From Lentisphaerota bacterium (GTDB lineage: Bacteria; Verrucomicrobiota; Kiritimatiellia; RFP12; JAAYLN01), in NCBI GenBank assembly GCA_012521875.1, contig JAAYLN010000062.1, positions 1 through 33,719 on the forward strand: a DNA stretch of 33,719 nt, given 5' to 3'. The notes below the pieces were generated by a model. It was not told where the DNA came from, made no database searches, and saw only the letters and a program-made list of their open reading frames with translations. Every line of letters begins with the position of its first letter. The first letter of the stretch is position 1. Positions 8,599 to 20,307 of this stretch are shown in pieces. Position numbers and translations under genes: made by a program.

Positions 8599-8688
8599 CC
8601 CACTTAAACCCACTCTTAAACGGTACACTTCATCCATCCGCTTACTCTTTAGCTTTCGACAAAGTTTGCGACAAAGCTCGCGACAAAG
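8599..8688 (+). repeat. CACTTAAACCC module plus 12-bp GACAAAG array (copy A)
   Basis: The module CCCACTTAAACCCACTC...CGGTACACTTCATCCATCCGCTTACTC (8599-8647) runs into three GACAAAG units at 8658, 8670 and 8682, exactly 12 bp apart. The same order of parts recurs at 10289-10398, and the module alone at 10757-10825. It sits between the SH3b gene and panC, 35 nt before the panC ATG. Confidence 0.85.
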
Positions 8689-8723
8689 AGGGGTTCTACG
8701 TTCCTTTCCAACTGACAACTGCC

Positions 8724-9853: not shown

Positions 9854-10072
9854 GTGGCCAGGAGGACAGGCGTTTTTGCAGCCGGCACGAGCTGCGATGA
9901 CTGTACATCCGTCCCGACCGTGCCGGCCGAATCGGCATATGCCGCCGCAAGCGGCGGGAAAGAAAGCGCGTCCGGGTCCGCGCACTCAAAACCGCTTGCG
10001 CACGTAGTGCGCTGCGCGGGGTGACCGAACAGACCGTTTCGCATCAGTACCGGGCGTCCGGGCGGGAGGGAG

Positions 10073-10121
10073 GGACGAGCGTCTGCTCGTCCTCGGAGTT
10101 GCGGGCAAGCAGACGCTTGCC
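10073..10121. repeat. Hairpin pair with complementary loops
   Basis: GGACGAGC-GTCT-GCTCGTCC (10073-10092) and GGCAAGC-AGAC-GCTTGCC (10104-10121) are perfect hairpins 11 nt apart. Their 10-bp cores (AGCGTCTGCT and AGCAGACGCT) are exact reverse complements, so this is an inverted pair like a BIME. Confidence 0.8.
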
Positions 10122-10208
10122 TCTCTCGGCGGCAGTTCCGGTAGTACCGGCAGTTCCGGGCTCGAGGACGAGGACGAAAATCCGCCCATCAGCTTTCCTG
10201 CTGCATTC

Positions 10209-10398
10209 GACAAAGCGTAGGGACGAAGTGAGGGGACGAAGCGTATCCGACAAAGCGTGGGGACAAAGTGCGTGGACAAAGTGTTGGAGCGGAGCACCCA
10301 CTTAAACCCTCTCTTAGTCTCACTCTTAATCGGTACGCTTAAACCACCCGCTTACTCTTCCGCCTTCGACAAAGTTATTGGCAAAGCTCGCGACAAAG
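10209..10398 (+). repeat. Composite repeat: 6-unit 13-bp array, CACTTAAACCC module, 12-bp array (copy B)
   Basis: Six GACAAAG/GACGAAG units start at 10209, 10222, 10235, 10249, 10262 and 10275 (spacing 13, 13, 14, 13, 13). Then comes GCGGAGCACCCACTTAAACC...CGCTTACTC (10289-10357), then units at 10368, 10380 and 10392 (spacing 12). The six-unit part matches the right arm of 19258-19330 in unit number, spacing and the GACGAAG variant at unit three. Confidence 0.88.
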
Positions 10399-10407
10399 TT
10401 ACTGAAA

Positions 10408-10486
10408 GCCCTGAAGGGGCGCGATATACCAGGCCCAGGGCAACGCCCTGGGGAATGAAGCTAAAAACGACTAGCCCTGAAGGGGC
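10408..10486. repeat. REP-like hairpins
   Basis: GCCCTGAAGGGGC occurs at 10408-10420 and again at 10474-10486, with a TGAA loop. Between them lies CCCAGGGC-AAC-GCCCTGGG (10434-10452), an 8-bp perfect stem. Related hairpins with TGAA and AAC loops recur at 22828-22906. Confidence 0.75.
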
Positions 10487-10537
10487 GGGACATAATTACC
10501 TCCCACACCCATGATGCTTATGATAACTATTCACGCC

Positions 10538-10556
10538 GTGAATGATTGTCATTCAC
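10538..10556. promoter_or_regulatory. Palindrome GTGAATGA-TTG-TCATTCAC
   Basis: A perfect 8+8 inverted repeat with a 3-nt centre. It shares the AATGA-N3-TCATT core with 23498-23510 in the divergent promoter region of the toxin-antitoxin and DUF58 operons. The core resembles Fur-type half sites, but no gene starts next to this copy. Confidence 0.5.
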
Positions 10557-10565
10557 ACTGCAAAA

Positions 10566-10825
10566 CTTGGCGCCTTGGCGGTTAGTTGCCTGTGTACGGC
10601 TCGCCGGCGGTTCCGTTCGCCATCCATGCGCTCTCCAATACACCGCGGAGACCGCGGGCTCCATGGCGCATCTGGAGCGAACTGGGAGCCGGAACTCTCG
10701 CTTGCTCATTCGCTTTCGACAAAGTGTGTAGACAAGGTGTGGAGACAAGGTGTAGTGCGGAGCACCCACTTAAACCCACTCTGAAACTCACTCTTAATCG
10801 GCACACTTAAACCACCCGCTTACTC
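10566..10825 (-). repeat. Dispersed intergenic repeat, minus-oriented copy, plus CACTTAAACCC module C
   Basis: Read on the minus strand, 10757-10566 gives a GACAAG array, GAAAGCGAATGAGCAAGCGA, GGAGCCCGCGGTCTCCGCGG, CCGGCGAGCCGTACACAGG and AACCGCCAAGGCGCCAAG. The same series occurs on the plus strand at 29177-29539. The plus-strand continuation 10757-10825 is a third copy of the CACTTAAACCC...CGCTTACTC module. Confidence 0.82.
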
Positions 10826-10992
10826 CATTTTCGCGTGCATACTCGCCCATTCGCGGCTCCCCTTTCGCGCTTTTCGCGTTTTTCGCGGTTAAAATAACAC
10901 CATCAATTCGCGTCCATTCGCGTCCATTGGCGGTTCCTGTTCTCCGCGCCTCTGTGCCTCCGTGCCTCTGTGAGAGACTACCATCTGCATTC

Positions 10993-11032
10993 GACGAAGG
11001 CGACAAAGTTACCGACAAAGCTCGCGACAAAG
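10993..11032 (+). repeat. Short GACAAAG array upstream of rnfA
   Basis: GACGAAG at 10993, then GACAAAG at 11002, 11014 and 11026 (the last two steps are 12 bp). It ends in GCTCGCGACAAAGT, the same end as the arrays at 8682, 10392 and the single unit at 23521. Confidence 0.75.
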
Positions 11033-11193
11033 TAGCCATCCCAACTTCCTACTGCCACTGCCTGCTGCTACTGCCGCCGCCCCGCTCCGGGGCTGCGGCC
11101 CCCCCTGTCCCCTGTCTCCTGTCTCCTGTCCCCCGCGCCCCCGCTCGCCGTGCACCGCCGTGCGCGCGGGGCAGCACAGGGCGCGCGCGGGGC

Positions 11194-11222
11194 TTGTATT
11201 AGCTGGCGGTTAGCCGTATAAT
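11194..11222 (+). promoter_or_regulatory. Probable rnf operon promoter
   Basis: TTGTAT (11194-11199), a 17-nt spacer and a perfect TATAAT (11217-11222) lie 38 nt before the rnfA ATG. The -35 is weak (3 of 6), the -10 is consensus, and the spacing is ideal. Confidence 0.55.
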
Positions 11223-16295: not shown

Positions 16296-18086
16296 ATGAA
16301 GCCACCCGAGATACCAGGTCTGCAATTCACCGCCTTGCTCGCCAAGGGCGAGATGTTCACGACGTGGAAGGCCACCAAGGAGTCGCTGCAGCGCGAGGTG
16401 GATGTACGGGTGCTGAACGAGGGTGTCCCGCCGGAGCAGGCGGAACACCAGCTCGCCATGGCGCGCACGCTTGCGCGGCTGACGCATCCCGGACTGGCGC
16501 AGATCCACGACGTGATCACCGAGGGCGACGCCACGCATGTCATCATGGAGCATGTCGAGGGTGCCAGCCTGGCGGAGATGGTGGCCGGTACCGGCCGGTT
16601 GAACTCCGCACAGGCGCTGCGGCTGGCGCTGCAGCTTGCCGAGGCGCTGGACTATGCCTGGACGCAGGCCCAGGTGGTCTTCCGCAGTCTCAAGCCCCAG
16701 AACCTGCGCGTCAATCGCCAGGGCACCCTCAAGATCTCCGAGTATAGCCTTGCGATACAGGTGAAGCCGGGCGAGAACCCGCTGGAGGCCGACCAAGGCC
16801 ATGTCATCGGCACGCCGCACTTCATTGCGCCCGAACAGGCCGCGCTCAGCCCGGCGATCGATTTCCGGGCCGACATGTACTCGCTCGGCACGGTGCTCTA
16901 TTTCATGCTGACCGGCACGTCGCCGTTCGAGGGACGCGATAACTACGAGATTCTCGAACAGCAGGTCGGCGGGCAGATTCCCCATCCGCGCGATATCGTC
17001 GGCAATCTCCCCATGCCGGTCTGCCAGTTCGTCACGCGCCTGATGATGAAGCTGCCGCAGGACCGCTACGCCCAGTGGTCCGATGCGATCCGCGACTTGC
17101 GGCAGTTGCTGGCCAACCGCCCTCTGGTGGGGCGGCTCCCCGATGGTGTCAGCACGATTGCCTCCTTTGCCGGCCGCGCTGCGGTACGTGGTGCTTCAAT
17201 CAAGCGCGGTAGCCTGACGACGACCGCCGGCACGGCGATGCGTGCGCCCCGGCGCGGCGGCGGTGCCCGCGTGTTGCTCTGGCTGCTGCTGATGGTCTGG
17301 TTCGCGTGGCTGGCCAACGAGCGCCTCGGCAACCCGCTGTCGCTGCCCCCCGCGCTGGTCGTTGATATCGGGCTGCCCGATCTTAACCTGTCGTGGTTGC
17401 GCAAGGCCGCGCCTGAAGACGGGCAGCCGCCCGCCACGCAGCCTTTGGCGTCCATGGAAACCGGGACGGCCGCAATGCCGTCGGGCGAGGAAACGGCAGG
17501 GGCTCTTCCTGCCGACACCGCCGCGTCCGCAGCGGATACTGCGGTAGGGACTGCGGCGGAGCCCGATCCAGGCAGTACGGCTCCGGTTGTGGCCGCTGCC
17601 GCCGCGCCCGGTCTGGCCGAGGCCGCCTCCCTGCTGGCCGCCGGCGACAAGGCGGGCGCGCTGGTCAAGCTCGAAGAACTGCTGGCGGCGTCCCCCGACG
17701 CCACCGGCATCGCGGCCATCCGTGACGCCCTCAAGACCCTGCCATCGCCGCAGCCCGCCGTCGAGGCCGGTCTGATGGCGCAGCGCGGACAGCAAATCGT
17801 GATCCGTTATCAGGGACGCGAGCGCAAGATCATGCCCCGTGCGATTGTGGATGGCAAGCTGCAGGCGGAGTTCATCGCCGGCGAGGGCATCAGCCGCCCC
17901 GTGGTCTTCCAGATCGACAAGCTCGACGCCGCCGAGCAGTTGCGCTGGCTCCCCGAGCCGCAGACGCCGGTCGATCACGCCATTGTATGCCTGCTGGCCC
18001 TGCAGGCGGGCGACAAGGAGCGCCTGCGCGCGCACAGCGCGCGGGCAGGCGCCCTTGCACCGCTATTCGCGGCCGTTAATCCTTGA
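16296..18086 (+). CDS. Membrane-anchored pseudokinase (STK fold, catalytic residues replaced)
   Basis: A 596-residue protein. Residues about 10-275 have a bacterial Ser/Thr kinase (PknB-like) fold: VIMEHVEGASLAEMV hinge, GTPHFIAPEQ activation-segment end, and DFRADMYSLGTVLYFMLTG. All three catalytic positions are altered. The VAIK Lys is Arg38 (VDVRVL), the HRD loop reads FRS (129-131, followed by LKPQN), and DFG reads EYS (149-151). A basic stretch precedes one transmembrane helix (about 326-340). Beyond it lie an Ala/Pro/Thr-rich linker and a C-terminal domain of about 150 residues with no clear family. I infer a scaffold or sensor, not an active kinase. It is 19 nt behind rnfE and probably cotranscribed. 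Confidence 0.88.
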   Translation: MKPPEIPGLQFTALLAKGEMFTTWKATKESLQREVDVRVLNEGVPPEQAEHQLAMARTLARLTHPGLAQIHDVITEGDATHVIMEHVEGASLAEMVAGTGRLNSAQALRLALQLAEALDYAWTQAQVVFRSLKPQNLRVNRQGTLKISEYSLAIQVKPGENPLEADQGHVIGTPHFIAPEQAALSPAIDFRADMYSLGTVLYFMLTGTSPFEGRDNYEILEQQVGGQIPHPRDIVGNLPMPVCQFVTRLMMKLPQDRYAQWSDAIRDLRQLLANRPLVGRLPDGVSTIASFAGRAAVRGASIKRGSLTTTAGTAMRAPRRGGGARVLLWLLLMVWFAWLANERLGNPLSLPPALVVDIGLPDLNLSWLRKAAPEDGQPPATQPLASMETGTAAMPSGEETAGALPADTAASAADTAVGTAAEPDPGSTAPVVAAAAAPGLAEAASLLAAGDKAGALVKLEELLAASPDATGIAAIRDALKTLPSPQPAVEAGLMAQRGQQIVIRYQGRERKIMPRAIVDGKLQAEFIAGEGISRPVVFQIDKLDAAEQLRWLPEPQTPVDHAIVCLLALQAGDKERLRAHSARAGALAPLFAAVNP

Positions 18087-19074
18087 GGATCTCGTCAATC
18101 CGGCTAAGCTCCCCATCCGTCAGCGGTGCTGCGGCGAGGCCGGCGACGTTCTCCTCGATCTGGGATACACGGCTGGCACCGATCAGCGCCGAGGTCACGC
18201 GCGCATCGCGCAGTACCCACATCAGCGCCATCTGGGCCAGACTCTGGCCGCGCGCCTTGGCCACCTCGTTCAATGCCCGCACGCGCGCCAGCTTCTCCGG
18301 CGTCAGCGTCTCGCGCTTCAGGAAGGTGTTAGGCTTGCCGGCCCGCGAGTCGGCGGGAATGTCATCCAGGTAGCGGCTGGTCAGCACCCCCTGCGCCAGG
18401 GGACAGAAGGCGATCATGCCGATGCCCTCCTCCTCCAGCACGTCCAGCAGTCCGCTGGTTTCGGGGGCGCGGTTGAGCATCGAGTAGCTCGGCTGGTGGA
18501 TCAGGCAGGGCGTGCCGAGGCCGCGCAGGATGCGCGCCGCCTCGCGCGTCTGCTCGGGCGTATAGGAGGAGATGCCCACGTAGAGCGCCTTGCCCTGGCG
18601 CACCATGGTGTCCAGCGCGCCCATGGTCTCCTCCATCGGCGTCTTGAGGTCGGGACGGTGCGAATAGAAGATGTCCACGTAGTCCAGCCCCATGCGCCGC
18701 AGGCTCTGGTCGAGGCTCGCCAGCAGATACTTGCGGCCGCCCCAGTCGCCGTAGGGCCCCGGCCACATGCAGTAGCCGGCCTTGGTCGAGATGACCAGCT
18801 CGTCGCGGTACGGCGCCAGATCCTTGCGCATGACCGCGCCGAAGGTCTCCTCGGCGGAGCCGACGGGCGGGCCGTAGTTGTTGGCGAGGTCGAAATGCGT
18901 GATCCCCAGATCGAAGGCGCGGCGCAGCATGGCGCGGCTGTTCTCGAAGATGTCGACCCCGCCGAAGTTGTGCCAGAGGCCCAGCGAGAGCTGCGGCAGT
19001 TGCAGGCCGCTCCGGCCGCAGCGGTTGTAGGCCATCGGGCCCTTGTAGCGTTCAGGGTTGGCTTGGTAGCTCAT
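18076..19074 (-). CDS. Aldo/keto reductase, YghZ/Gpr type
   Basis: A 332-residue NADPH-dependent aldo-keto reductase. It closely follows E. coli YghZ (L-glyceraldehyde 3-phosphate reductase) motifs: THFDLANNYGPPVGSAEE, STKAGYCMWPGPYGDWGGRK, DYVDIFYSHRPD, ALYVGISSYTPEQ and IHQPSYSMLNR. The catalytic tetrad is Asp62, Tyr67, Lys98 and His139. A role in detoxifying aldehydes such as methylglyoxal is known for relatives and likely here. Its 3' end overlaps the convergent pseudokinase gene by 11 nt. GGAGAG lies near ATG 19074. Confidence 0.93.
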   Translation of the reverse strand: MSYQANPERYKGPMAYNRCGRSGLQLPQLSLGLWHNFGGVDIFENSRAMLRRAFDLGITHFDLANNYGPPVGSAEETFGAVMRKDLAPYRDELVISTKAGYCMWPGPYGDWGGRKYLLASLDQSLRRMGLDYVDIFYSHRPDLKTPMEETMGALDTMVRQGKALYVGISSYTPEQTREAARILRGLGTPCLIHQPSYSMLNRAPETSGLLDVLEEEGIGMIAFCPLAQGVLTSRYLDDIPADSRAGKPNTFLKRETLTPEKLARVRALNEVAKARGQSLAQMALMWVLRDARVTSALIGASRVSQIEENVAGLAAAPLTDGELSRIDEILKD

Positions 19075-19095: not shown

Positions 19096-19120
19096 TGCGA
19101 TTCAACACGGTTGAATCGCA
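19096..19120. repeat. Perfect hairpin repeat TGCGATTCAAC-ACG-GTTGAATCGCA
   Basis: An 11-bp perfect stem with a 3-nt loop, 21 nt upstream of the aldo-keto reductase start. A second copy, with one mismatch in the stem and a CAA loop, lies at 30106-30130. Both are preceded by TTCTG and followed by a C after the stem. Confidence 0.78.
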
Positions 19121-19157
19121 CTAGTAATCGGTTGGCGACAGGGGGGGCAACAATACA

Positions 19158-19330
19158 CTTTGTCTCACCACTTTGTCTCCACGCTTTGTCCCTTTACGCT
19201 TCGTCCCCGCACTTTGTCTCCACACTTTGTCGAAAATTTCGCGGCTGAAGCGATTCCGACAAAGCGTAGGGACAAAGTGATTGGACGAAGTGTAGCCGAC
19301 AAAGCGTAGGGATAAAGTGTAGGGACAAAG
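19158..19330. repeat. Mirror-symmetric 6+6 array of a 13-bp repeat
   Basis: Six CTTTGTC/CTTCGTC units start at 19158, 19171, 19184, 19199, 19212 and 19225. After a 26-nt centre, six GACAAAG-type units start at 19258, 19271, 19284, 19298, 19311 and 19324. Spacing from the centre outward is 13, 13, 15, 13, 13 on the left and 13, 13, 14, 13, 13 on the right. The third unit out from the centre is the CTTCGTC/GACGAAG variant on both sides. It fills most of the gap between the recR stop and the aldo-keto reductase start; nothing else is seen there. Confidence 0.9.
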
Positions 19331-19376
19331 AGAGCGAATTCTTCGAGAGCACCCCTGTCACTAGCCGATAATCGCA

Positions 19377-19976
19377 CTATGCCTCCTGGCGCCCGCCCAG
19401 GGCGCGCTTGAGGGTTAGCGGGTCGGAATAGCCCACGCCGCTGTCGACCGGCAGGCCGAAGGCCAGCCGCGTGACGCGGACCGGCCTTCCGCCGCGCAGC
19501 AGTTCCTGGACATAGGCCGCCGTGGCGTCGCCCTCGAGATCGGTGCTGACGGCCAGGATGATCTCGGTCACCGGTTCGCGCGCCACGCGCTCGGCCAGCG
19601 CCTGCAGGCGCAGGTCGGCGGGGCCCGTGGCGCGGGCGGCGGAGACCTTGCCGTGCAGCGCGTGGTAGCGCCCCGTGAAGACCCCGGCGCGCTCGATGGC
19701 CAGGATGTCGCCCGGCTCCTCCACCACGCAGATCGTGGCGGCATCGCGGCGGGGATCGGTGCAGAGCGGACAGGGGTTGGCGTCGCGCACGGTGAACCCG
19801 CCGCAGACATCGCAGCAGCAGACCGTCGCCCGGGCGTGCTCCAGCGCCGCCAGCAACTCCTGCAGCAGTCCCGTGGGACGGCGCACGAGCGCCAGCGCGG
19901 CGCGCTCGGCCGAGCGCCGGCCGAGCCCCGGCAGGCGCGACAGCACGCGGATCAGATTGTCAAGCGGTGGCTCCAT
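19377..19976 (-). CDS. recR: Recombination protein RecR
   Basis: A 199-residue recombination mediator that works with RecO and RecF to load RecA on gapped DNA. It has the N-terminal helix-hairpin-helix (LSRLPGLGRRSAERAAL), a four-Cys zinc finger (CDVCGGFTVRDANPCPLC) and a TOPRIM domain (ICVVEEPGDILAIERAGVFTGRYHALHG). The track start is GTG 19994, which overlaps the ybaB stop. ATG 19976 (MEPPLDNLIRVLSRLPGLG) matches usual RecR N-termini better, so I prefer it; the GTG remains possible. It is the last gene of dnaX-ybaB-recR. Confidence 0.95.
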   Translation of the reverse strand: MEPPLDNLIRVLSRLPGLGRRSAERAALALVRRPTGLLQELLAALEHARATVCCCDVCGGFTVRDANPCPLCTDPRRDAATICVVEEPGDILAIERAGVFTGRYHALHGKVSAARATGPADLRLQALAERVAREPVTEIILAVSTDLEGDATAAYVQELLRGGRPVRVTRLAFGLPVDSGVGYSDPLTLKRALGGRQEA

Positions 19977-19986
19977 GCGGTCAGCT

Positions 19987-20307
19987 TCAGCCACCCAGCA
20001 TCGAGGCGAGGTCGGAGCCCTGCATCATCTTGGCCATGTGCTCCTGCGTCCTCTGCTTGACCGACTTGATGGCGCCGTTGACCACGTTCGTCAGCATGGT
20101 CTCGAAGCGGTCGGGCTTGCCCGCGACAACTTCCGCCAGCGCCTCGGGCGCGACCTTGATGGACATCACGGTGAAGTCGCCGCGCACGACGGCGGTGATA
20201 CCGCCATTGGTATATTCGCAGGTGATCTTCTCGATCTCCGCCTGCATGCGCTTGGCCTCCTTGCGCATCTGCATTGCCTGCTTAACTTGTTCAAACATCT
20301 TGGCCAT
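19987..20307 (-). CDS. ybaB: YbaB/EbfC family nucleoid-associated protein
   Basis: A 106-residue small DNA-binding protein, the normal YbaB/EbfC size. Characteristic features are a helical N-terminus rich in Met, Lys and Gln (VKQAMQMRKEAKRMQAEI) and the core VRGDFTVMSIKVAPEAL. AGAGGAG stands 8 nt before ATG 20307. It lies between dnaX and recR, a gene order conserved in many bacteria, which supports a role linked to DNA transactions. Confidence 0.95.
   Translation of the reverse strand: MAKMFEQVKQAMQMRKEAKRMQAEIEKITCEYTNGGITAVVRGDFTVMSIKVAPEALAEVVAGKPDRFETMLTNVVNGAIKSVKQRTQEHMAKMMQGSDLASMLGG

Follow-up and report, generated by a model that had tools for sequence, protein, structure and literature searches.

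Within the window, that is, the whole 33,719-nt stretch of DNA analysed here, the mirrored array of GACAAAG-type heptamers is the interior of a longer element at 19124-19370, which is very probably a non-autonomous MITE, probably of IS66 type, whose arms are foldback-like and repetitive inside. The element shows two terminal inverted repeats, a target duplication, a length of 247 bp, no transposase gene and 28 copies in the genome, and it has the foldback layout of inverted arms with internal tandem repeats (6+6 units) and variant units in register. An intergenic mobile element had been among the options named by the first-pass annotation, and it is this option that the terminal inverted repeats, the 8-9 bp duplications, the 28 dispersed copies and the empty site of a relative's element favour.

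Structure of the element and its insertion beside recR

Reading the core base by base confirmed six GACAAAG-type units on either side of a 26-nt centre (19232-19257), which includes GCGGCTGAAGCGATTCC. Counted from the centre, the left arm (19158-19231, minus strand) has steps of 13, 13, 15, 13 and 13 with GACGAAG as unit 3, and the right arm (19258-19330, plus strand) has steps of 13, 13, 14, 13 and 13 with GACGAAG as unit 3 and GATAAAG as unit 5. The first-pass description of six 13-bp-spaced units per side around a 26-nt centre, with GACGAAG third from the centre in both arms, is therefore accurate; its odd-sized step also falls at the matching place in the two arms, between the third and fourth unit from the centre and directly after GACGAAG, but on the left it measures 15 and not 14. 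Both arms derive from a single phased heptamer array, one being an inverted and by now diverged copy of the other, and together they form a foldback-type palindrome.

When the mirror copies were aligned, similarity extended past the arms as far as GTAATCGGYTRGYGACAGGGG and its complement and then ended. In the window the array-bearing element is bounded by terminal inverted repeats of the form GTAATCGG...CCGATA, the left one being GTAATCGGTTGGCGACAGGGG (19124-19144, plus strand) and the right one CCCCTGTCACTAGCCGATA (19352-19370, minus strand), which stops two bases short of the CCGATTAC usually seen; at 247 bp, there is no room for a transposase gene. An identical 9-mer, ATCGCACTA, adjoins both ends as a target duplication (left copy, 19115-19123; right copy, 19371-19379). 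The gene immediately upstream in transcription order is recR (19377-19994, minus strand; TIGR00615, 4e-55), and the next gene downstream encodes an aldo-keto reductase of the L-glyceraldehyde 3-phosphate reductase type (18076-19074, minus strand; NF007388, 9.1e-143). Since the last three bases of the right duplication are the recR stop codon (minus strand), the element inserted flush against recR and left the gene unbroken. The closest recR among named genomes, at 81% identity, belongs to 'Kiritimatiellae bacterium STD1_141', and we accordingly regard the host as an uncultured bacterium of Kiritimatiellae type; the nearest relative has a different gene after recR, synteny not being conserved, so the search for an empty site at this locus was uninformative.

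Dispersed copies in the draft genome

A three-unit pattern gave 376 matches (187 + 189) in the 3.96-Mb draft genome and none with the reversed-pattern control, and a pattern of the centre plus the first unit recovered 28 mirror copies; here too the control gave none, nor did any of 20 relatives. The array thus extends beyond this contig, the 28 mirror copies being dispersed in the draft genome, and neither the number of units nor their spacing varies freely: among copies whose arms could be read, most have six units per arm in one step order, the exceptions being copies in which units were mutated, lost or gained, some of them with one arm down to 2-3 units. Across the 28 copies the arms are collinear and the ends conserved, and the earlier judgement that this is a defined element rather than a random simple repeat was right. 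The terminal repeat itself occurs in about 175 genome copies at no more than 3 mismatches (control, 1), and both ends are present in the window copy and 12 other mirror copies. Next to the 9-bp duplication in the window, duplications of 8-9 bp flank three further elements of the same genome (L048/L241, CAAAAATCA; L185, TCCTTTCGT; L189, GAAATGTG). Clean duplications were seen in only some copies with both ends and several had none, which we attribute to age or recombination.

Relatives with the same ends, and the probable mover

Ends of the GTAATCGG type were also found in the sister species (G001) and in genera of other families, where the interiors between them, several of them likewise inverted, are unrelated to the GACAAAG array. 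In the sister species one such element (L173) is flanked by the duplication GTCACCCGG, and in genus g23 perfect 9-bp duplications were present at four of the seven independent insertions examined (L193, GTTGCGGTT; L195, ATTCTTCCG; L204, GGACTCTAT; L213, GCCGCGCAT). Genome G188 (L268) carries the uninterrupted orthologue of the L213 site, to which the joined flanks plus one 9-mer align without gaps at 88% identity over 211 bp, a result that concerns the L213 element with its other cargo and not an array copy. Because this unoccupied orthologous site is known for a relative's element, it is strongly supported that GTAATCGG-ended elements transpose and duplicate 8-9 bp of target. As same-ended elements of other species hold quite different interiors, the arms appear to be cargo that movement does not require. 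Searches of viral contigs, plasmids and phages gave no match.

The probable mover is an IS66-family transposase, which an autonomous element with matching ends would supply. The draft genome yielded neither an IS66 gene (PF03050) nor an IS256-type, mutator-related gene (PF00872). In genome G283, a PF03050 match (4.8e-7) covers the last 97 transposase residues and stops some 130 bp inward of a GTAATCGGTTAGTGACCGGGG end; the IS66 link depends on this one contig end, and IS66 is the only kind of transposase found with GTAATCGG-type ends, the complete IS66 genes of G010 and G192 being without them. Ends of IS66 elements begin GTAAGCG and their duplications are 8 bp (PMC11946415), and GTAAGCG... 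ends are likewise given in PMC12888890, whereas the ends of the present family have GTAA followed by TCGG (GTAATCG) and its duplications mostly measure 9 bp, two or three being of 8 bp. As 9-bp duplications prevail and the link depends on one contig, the IS66 step is probable rather than proven.

Contig ends of G191 and G194 resemble one another over about 54 bp of such an end, inside which the contigs break off. Multicopy insertion sequences often break short-read assemblies in this way. Many contigs of G191 (L224, L227, L230, L232 and L234) stop some 126 bp inward of a GTAATCGG end, just after a common ATGAAAACAAAG start; this resembles the left end of an autonomous insertion sequence that is present in many copies but absent from the bin. 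A 2.5-kb end-to-end interval (L182:9751-12267) was considered as an autonomous element and rejected, as it holds a 590-aa ORF, by eye similar to formate-tetrahydrofolate ligase, between two separate elements.

Modular arrays and mosaic repeats

The arrays are modular: they are found also without GTAATCGG ends and recombine with other modules. The copy at 10209-10281 (plus strand) stands alone as one arm of the 14-step type and lacks GTAATCGG ends; the first-pass annotation gave it steps of 13, 13, 14, 13 and 13 and GACGAAG at unit 3, both of which stand, except that unit 2 is GACGAAG as well. Solitary arrays such as this one run on into a CTTAAAC/CTTAATC module with 12-13 bp phasing (here 10300-10360, plus strand), a junction that recurs at many loci, and the window contains three GACAAAG triples at 12-bp steps, all on the plus strand (10368-10398; 8658-8688, preceded by a CTTAAAC module; and 11002-11032). 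Among the GTAATCGG-ended elements of this genome there are at least two mirrored designs, one being the GACAAAG 6+6 array and the other a GTAAGCG/GTTTAAG versus CTTAAAC/CTTAATC hairpin of about 5+5 units, one every 12-13 bp, which is often followed by a GACAAAG triple at 12-bp steps (L076, L077, L185, L189). In 10 of the 28 mirror copies a CTTAAAC module stands in place of one outer half, with the switch at the array edge, and a second type of inverted end, AGTCTGAGACACC ... GGCGTCTCTGACC, flanks many solitary arrays and triples. The arrays probably act as homology tracts for recombination, by which elements would swap halves, and such half-swapping would have produced both the solitary arrays (e.g., 10209-10281) and the mosaics of array, CTTAAAC module and triple.

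Several further repeats were observed. Mirrored 12-bp GACAAAG triples (2+3 or 3+3) lie within TGAGAAAC...GTTTCTCA-type inverted ends in G011 and G003 (L279-L284) and are a second element family with the same heptamer. Expanded arrays have 15 units in L050 (10084-10279), 9 in L042 (8321-8437) and 8 in L049 (12510-12607), and their new units are near-identical, which points to recent slippage or unequal exchange. Other degenerate short-period repeats (e.g., AATCTGCGCAAATCTGCGG, TTCGCGCCTTCGCGTGAG, CCTGAACCCTGAACCCT, CTGCCTACTGCCACTGCC and CTTGGCGTCCTTGGCGTC) crowd positions 10000-11200 of the window and most of the sampled intergenic regions (L031-L050). As the 12-bp triple is a multiple of the codon length, read-through ORFs end in ...FDKV(C/T)DKARDK... 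(window 8600-8700 and 10257-10514), and any such peptides annotated in these genomes probably derive from the repeat.

Protein binding, RNA folding and other readings

From its sequence pattern, it is possible that the array is bound by a protein, an option that the first-pass annotation had named and for which a host regulator, a nucleoid protein or a second transposition factor would be candidates, each compatible with the MITE explanation. The stronger claim, that the phased heptamer arrays function as protein-binding sites, stay under selection in their copies and are merely spread by the transposon ends, we regard as a doubtful but serious alternative. Across 28 copies, heptamer columns varied about threefold less than linkers (3.8% versus 11.4%), and changes confined to a single copy followed the same direction (1.5% versus 2.9%, p = 0.006); however, the array copies are related to each other, the transversion singletons alone gave no significant difference, and exchange of units alters linkers while sparing the common heptamer, so that lower variation could arise without selection. 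GACGAAG comes right before the long step in 77 of 108 cases, compared with 14 of 336 ordinary steps, and the same hinge of GACGAAG plus long step is seen, with a base period of 12 bp, in two other genera, those of G011 (which is of another family) and G003. In Galileo, repetitive arms are known to hold multiple transposase sites (PMC3688188), but no protein candidate was found for the present arrays, and in other species the same ends move without this array. A broader version would make the GACAAAG array with its GACGAAG hinge an independent cis-acting module, read by a dedicated conserved protein, captured by more than one mobile-element family (GTAATCGG ends here, TGAGACACC/TGAGAAAC-type inverted ends elsewhere) in several genera of the order and kept for a selected function in its copies; this we consider unlikely.

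The first-pass annotation had also raised a very long hairpin RNA, which as the element's function (protecting or ending the dnaX-ybaB-recR message, or being cut as double-stranded RNA) appears improbable. The folding potential is real, with a minimum free energy of -133.8 kcal/mol and z scores of -12.7 (plus strand) and -11.1 (minus strand), and the element adjoins the recR stop codon in the direction of recR; but such folding is general to any inverted repeat, and compensatory change between the arms did not appear, with none of 50 pairs changed on both sides in 20 copies and a covariation score not above that of shuffles, so the fold needs nothing beyond inverted duplication. In addition, an Rfam scan of the window returned no match, no terminator-like site was found, and copies with one arm shortened to 2-3 units persist. 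That the array is an immobile minisatellite, arisen in place via slippage and inversion, is hardly credible: some arrays show satellite-like expansion (L042, 9 units; L049, 8; L050, 15), but 28 dispersed copies share a centre, step order and ends, and several carry target duplications. Two other candidates, an iteron-type replication origin and a CRISPR, were ruled out, the former by the 28 dispersed copies and the latter by the 12-14 bp units with near-constant linkers.

Comparison with known systems

A MITE being the preferred reading, its kind is known, and what looks new is the arm design and the modularity. A description of this family was not found in the literature, where coverage of subscription papers was thin, and for the motif and host group BrickBuilt alone proved relevant. 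The first-pass statement that no named family has this design holds for bacteria in the literature covered; the same general design is seen in eukaryotic foldback transposons, those of flies being the best-known case. The element brings a foldback-like architecture, with inverted arms of phased short direct repeats, to bacteria in less than 250 bp, and it belongs to a short-ended family with interchangeable interior modules. What was a puzzling intergenic pattern in a little-studied group can now be described as a defined family of mobile elements, and whether the arms are binding arrays for the transposase or a host protein, or neutral cargo, becomes a testable question.

The window element resembles IS66 insertion sequences and IS-derived MITEs in its GTAA-starting inverted repeats, its 8-9 bp duplication and the IS66 transposase in one relative's end, and differs from IS66 in having no transposase, GTAATCGG instead of GTAAGCG, often 9-bp duplications and an interior of phased arrays. 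REP/BIME sequences are intergenic palindromes with many hairpin-forming copies per genome and are linked to RAYT (Y1) proteins; compared with these, the window element is much longer and has terminal repeats and target duplications. With the eukaryotic foldback transposons Galileo and Tetris (PMC3688188, PMC4079207) it shares inverted arms that are tandemly repetitive inside and vary in unit number, ends common to other non-autonomous elements, and repeats that seed satellite-like expansions, whereas its arms are far shorter (73-74 bp), its heptamers are spaced at 13-bp steps and have a fixed hinge, its host is bacterial and its transposase class is different; we keep it out of the Galileo and Tetris families because their transposases are of other kinds. 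The nearest bacterial case is BrickBuilt of Porphyromonas gingivalis (PMC4596501), likewise an intergenic MITE with a minisatellite (19 copies in one genome), which, unlike the window element, consists of a single direct array in which 23-nt units follow one another with no spacers, and has neither mirrored phased arms nor a hinge.
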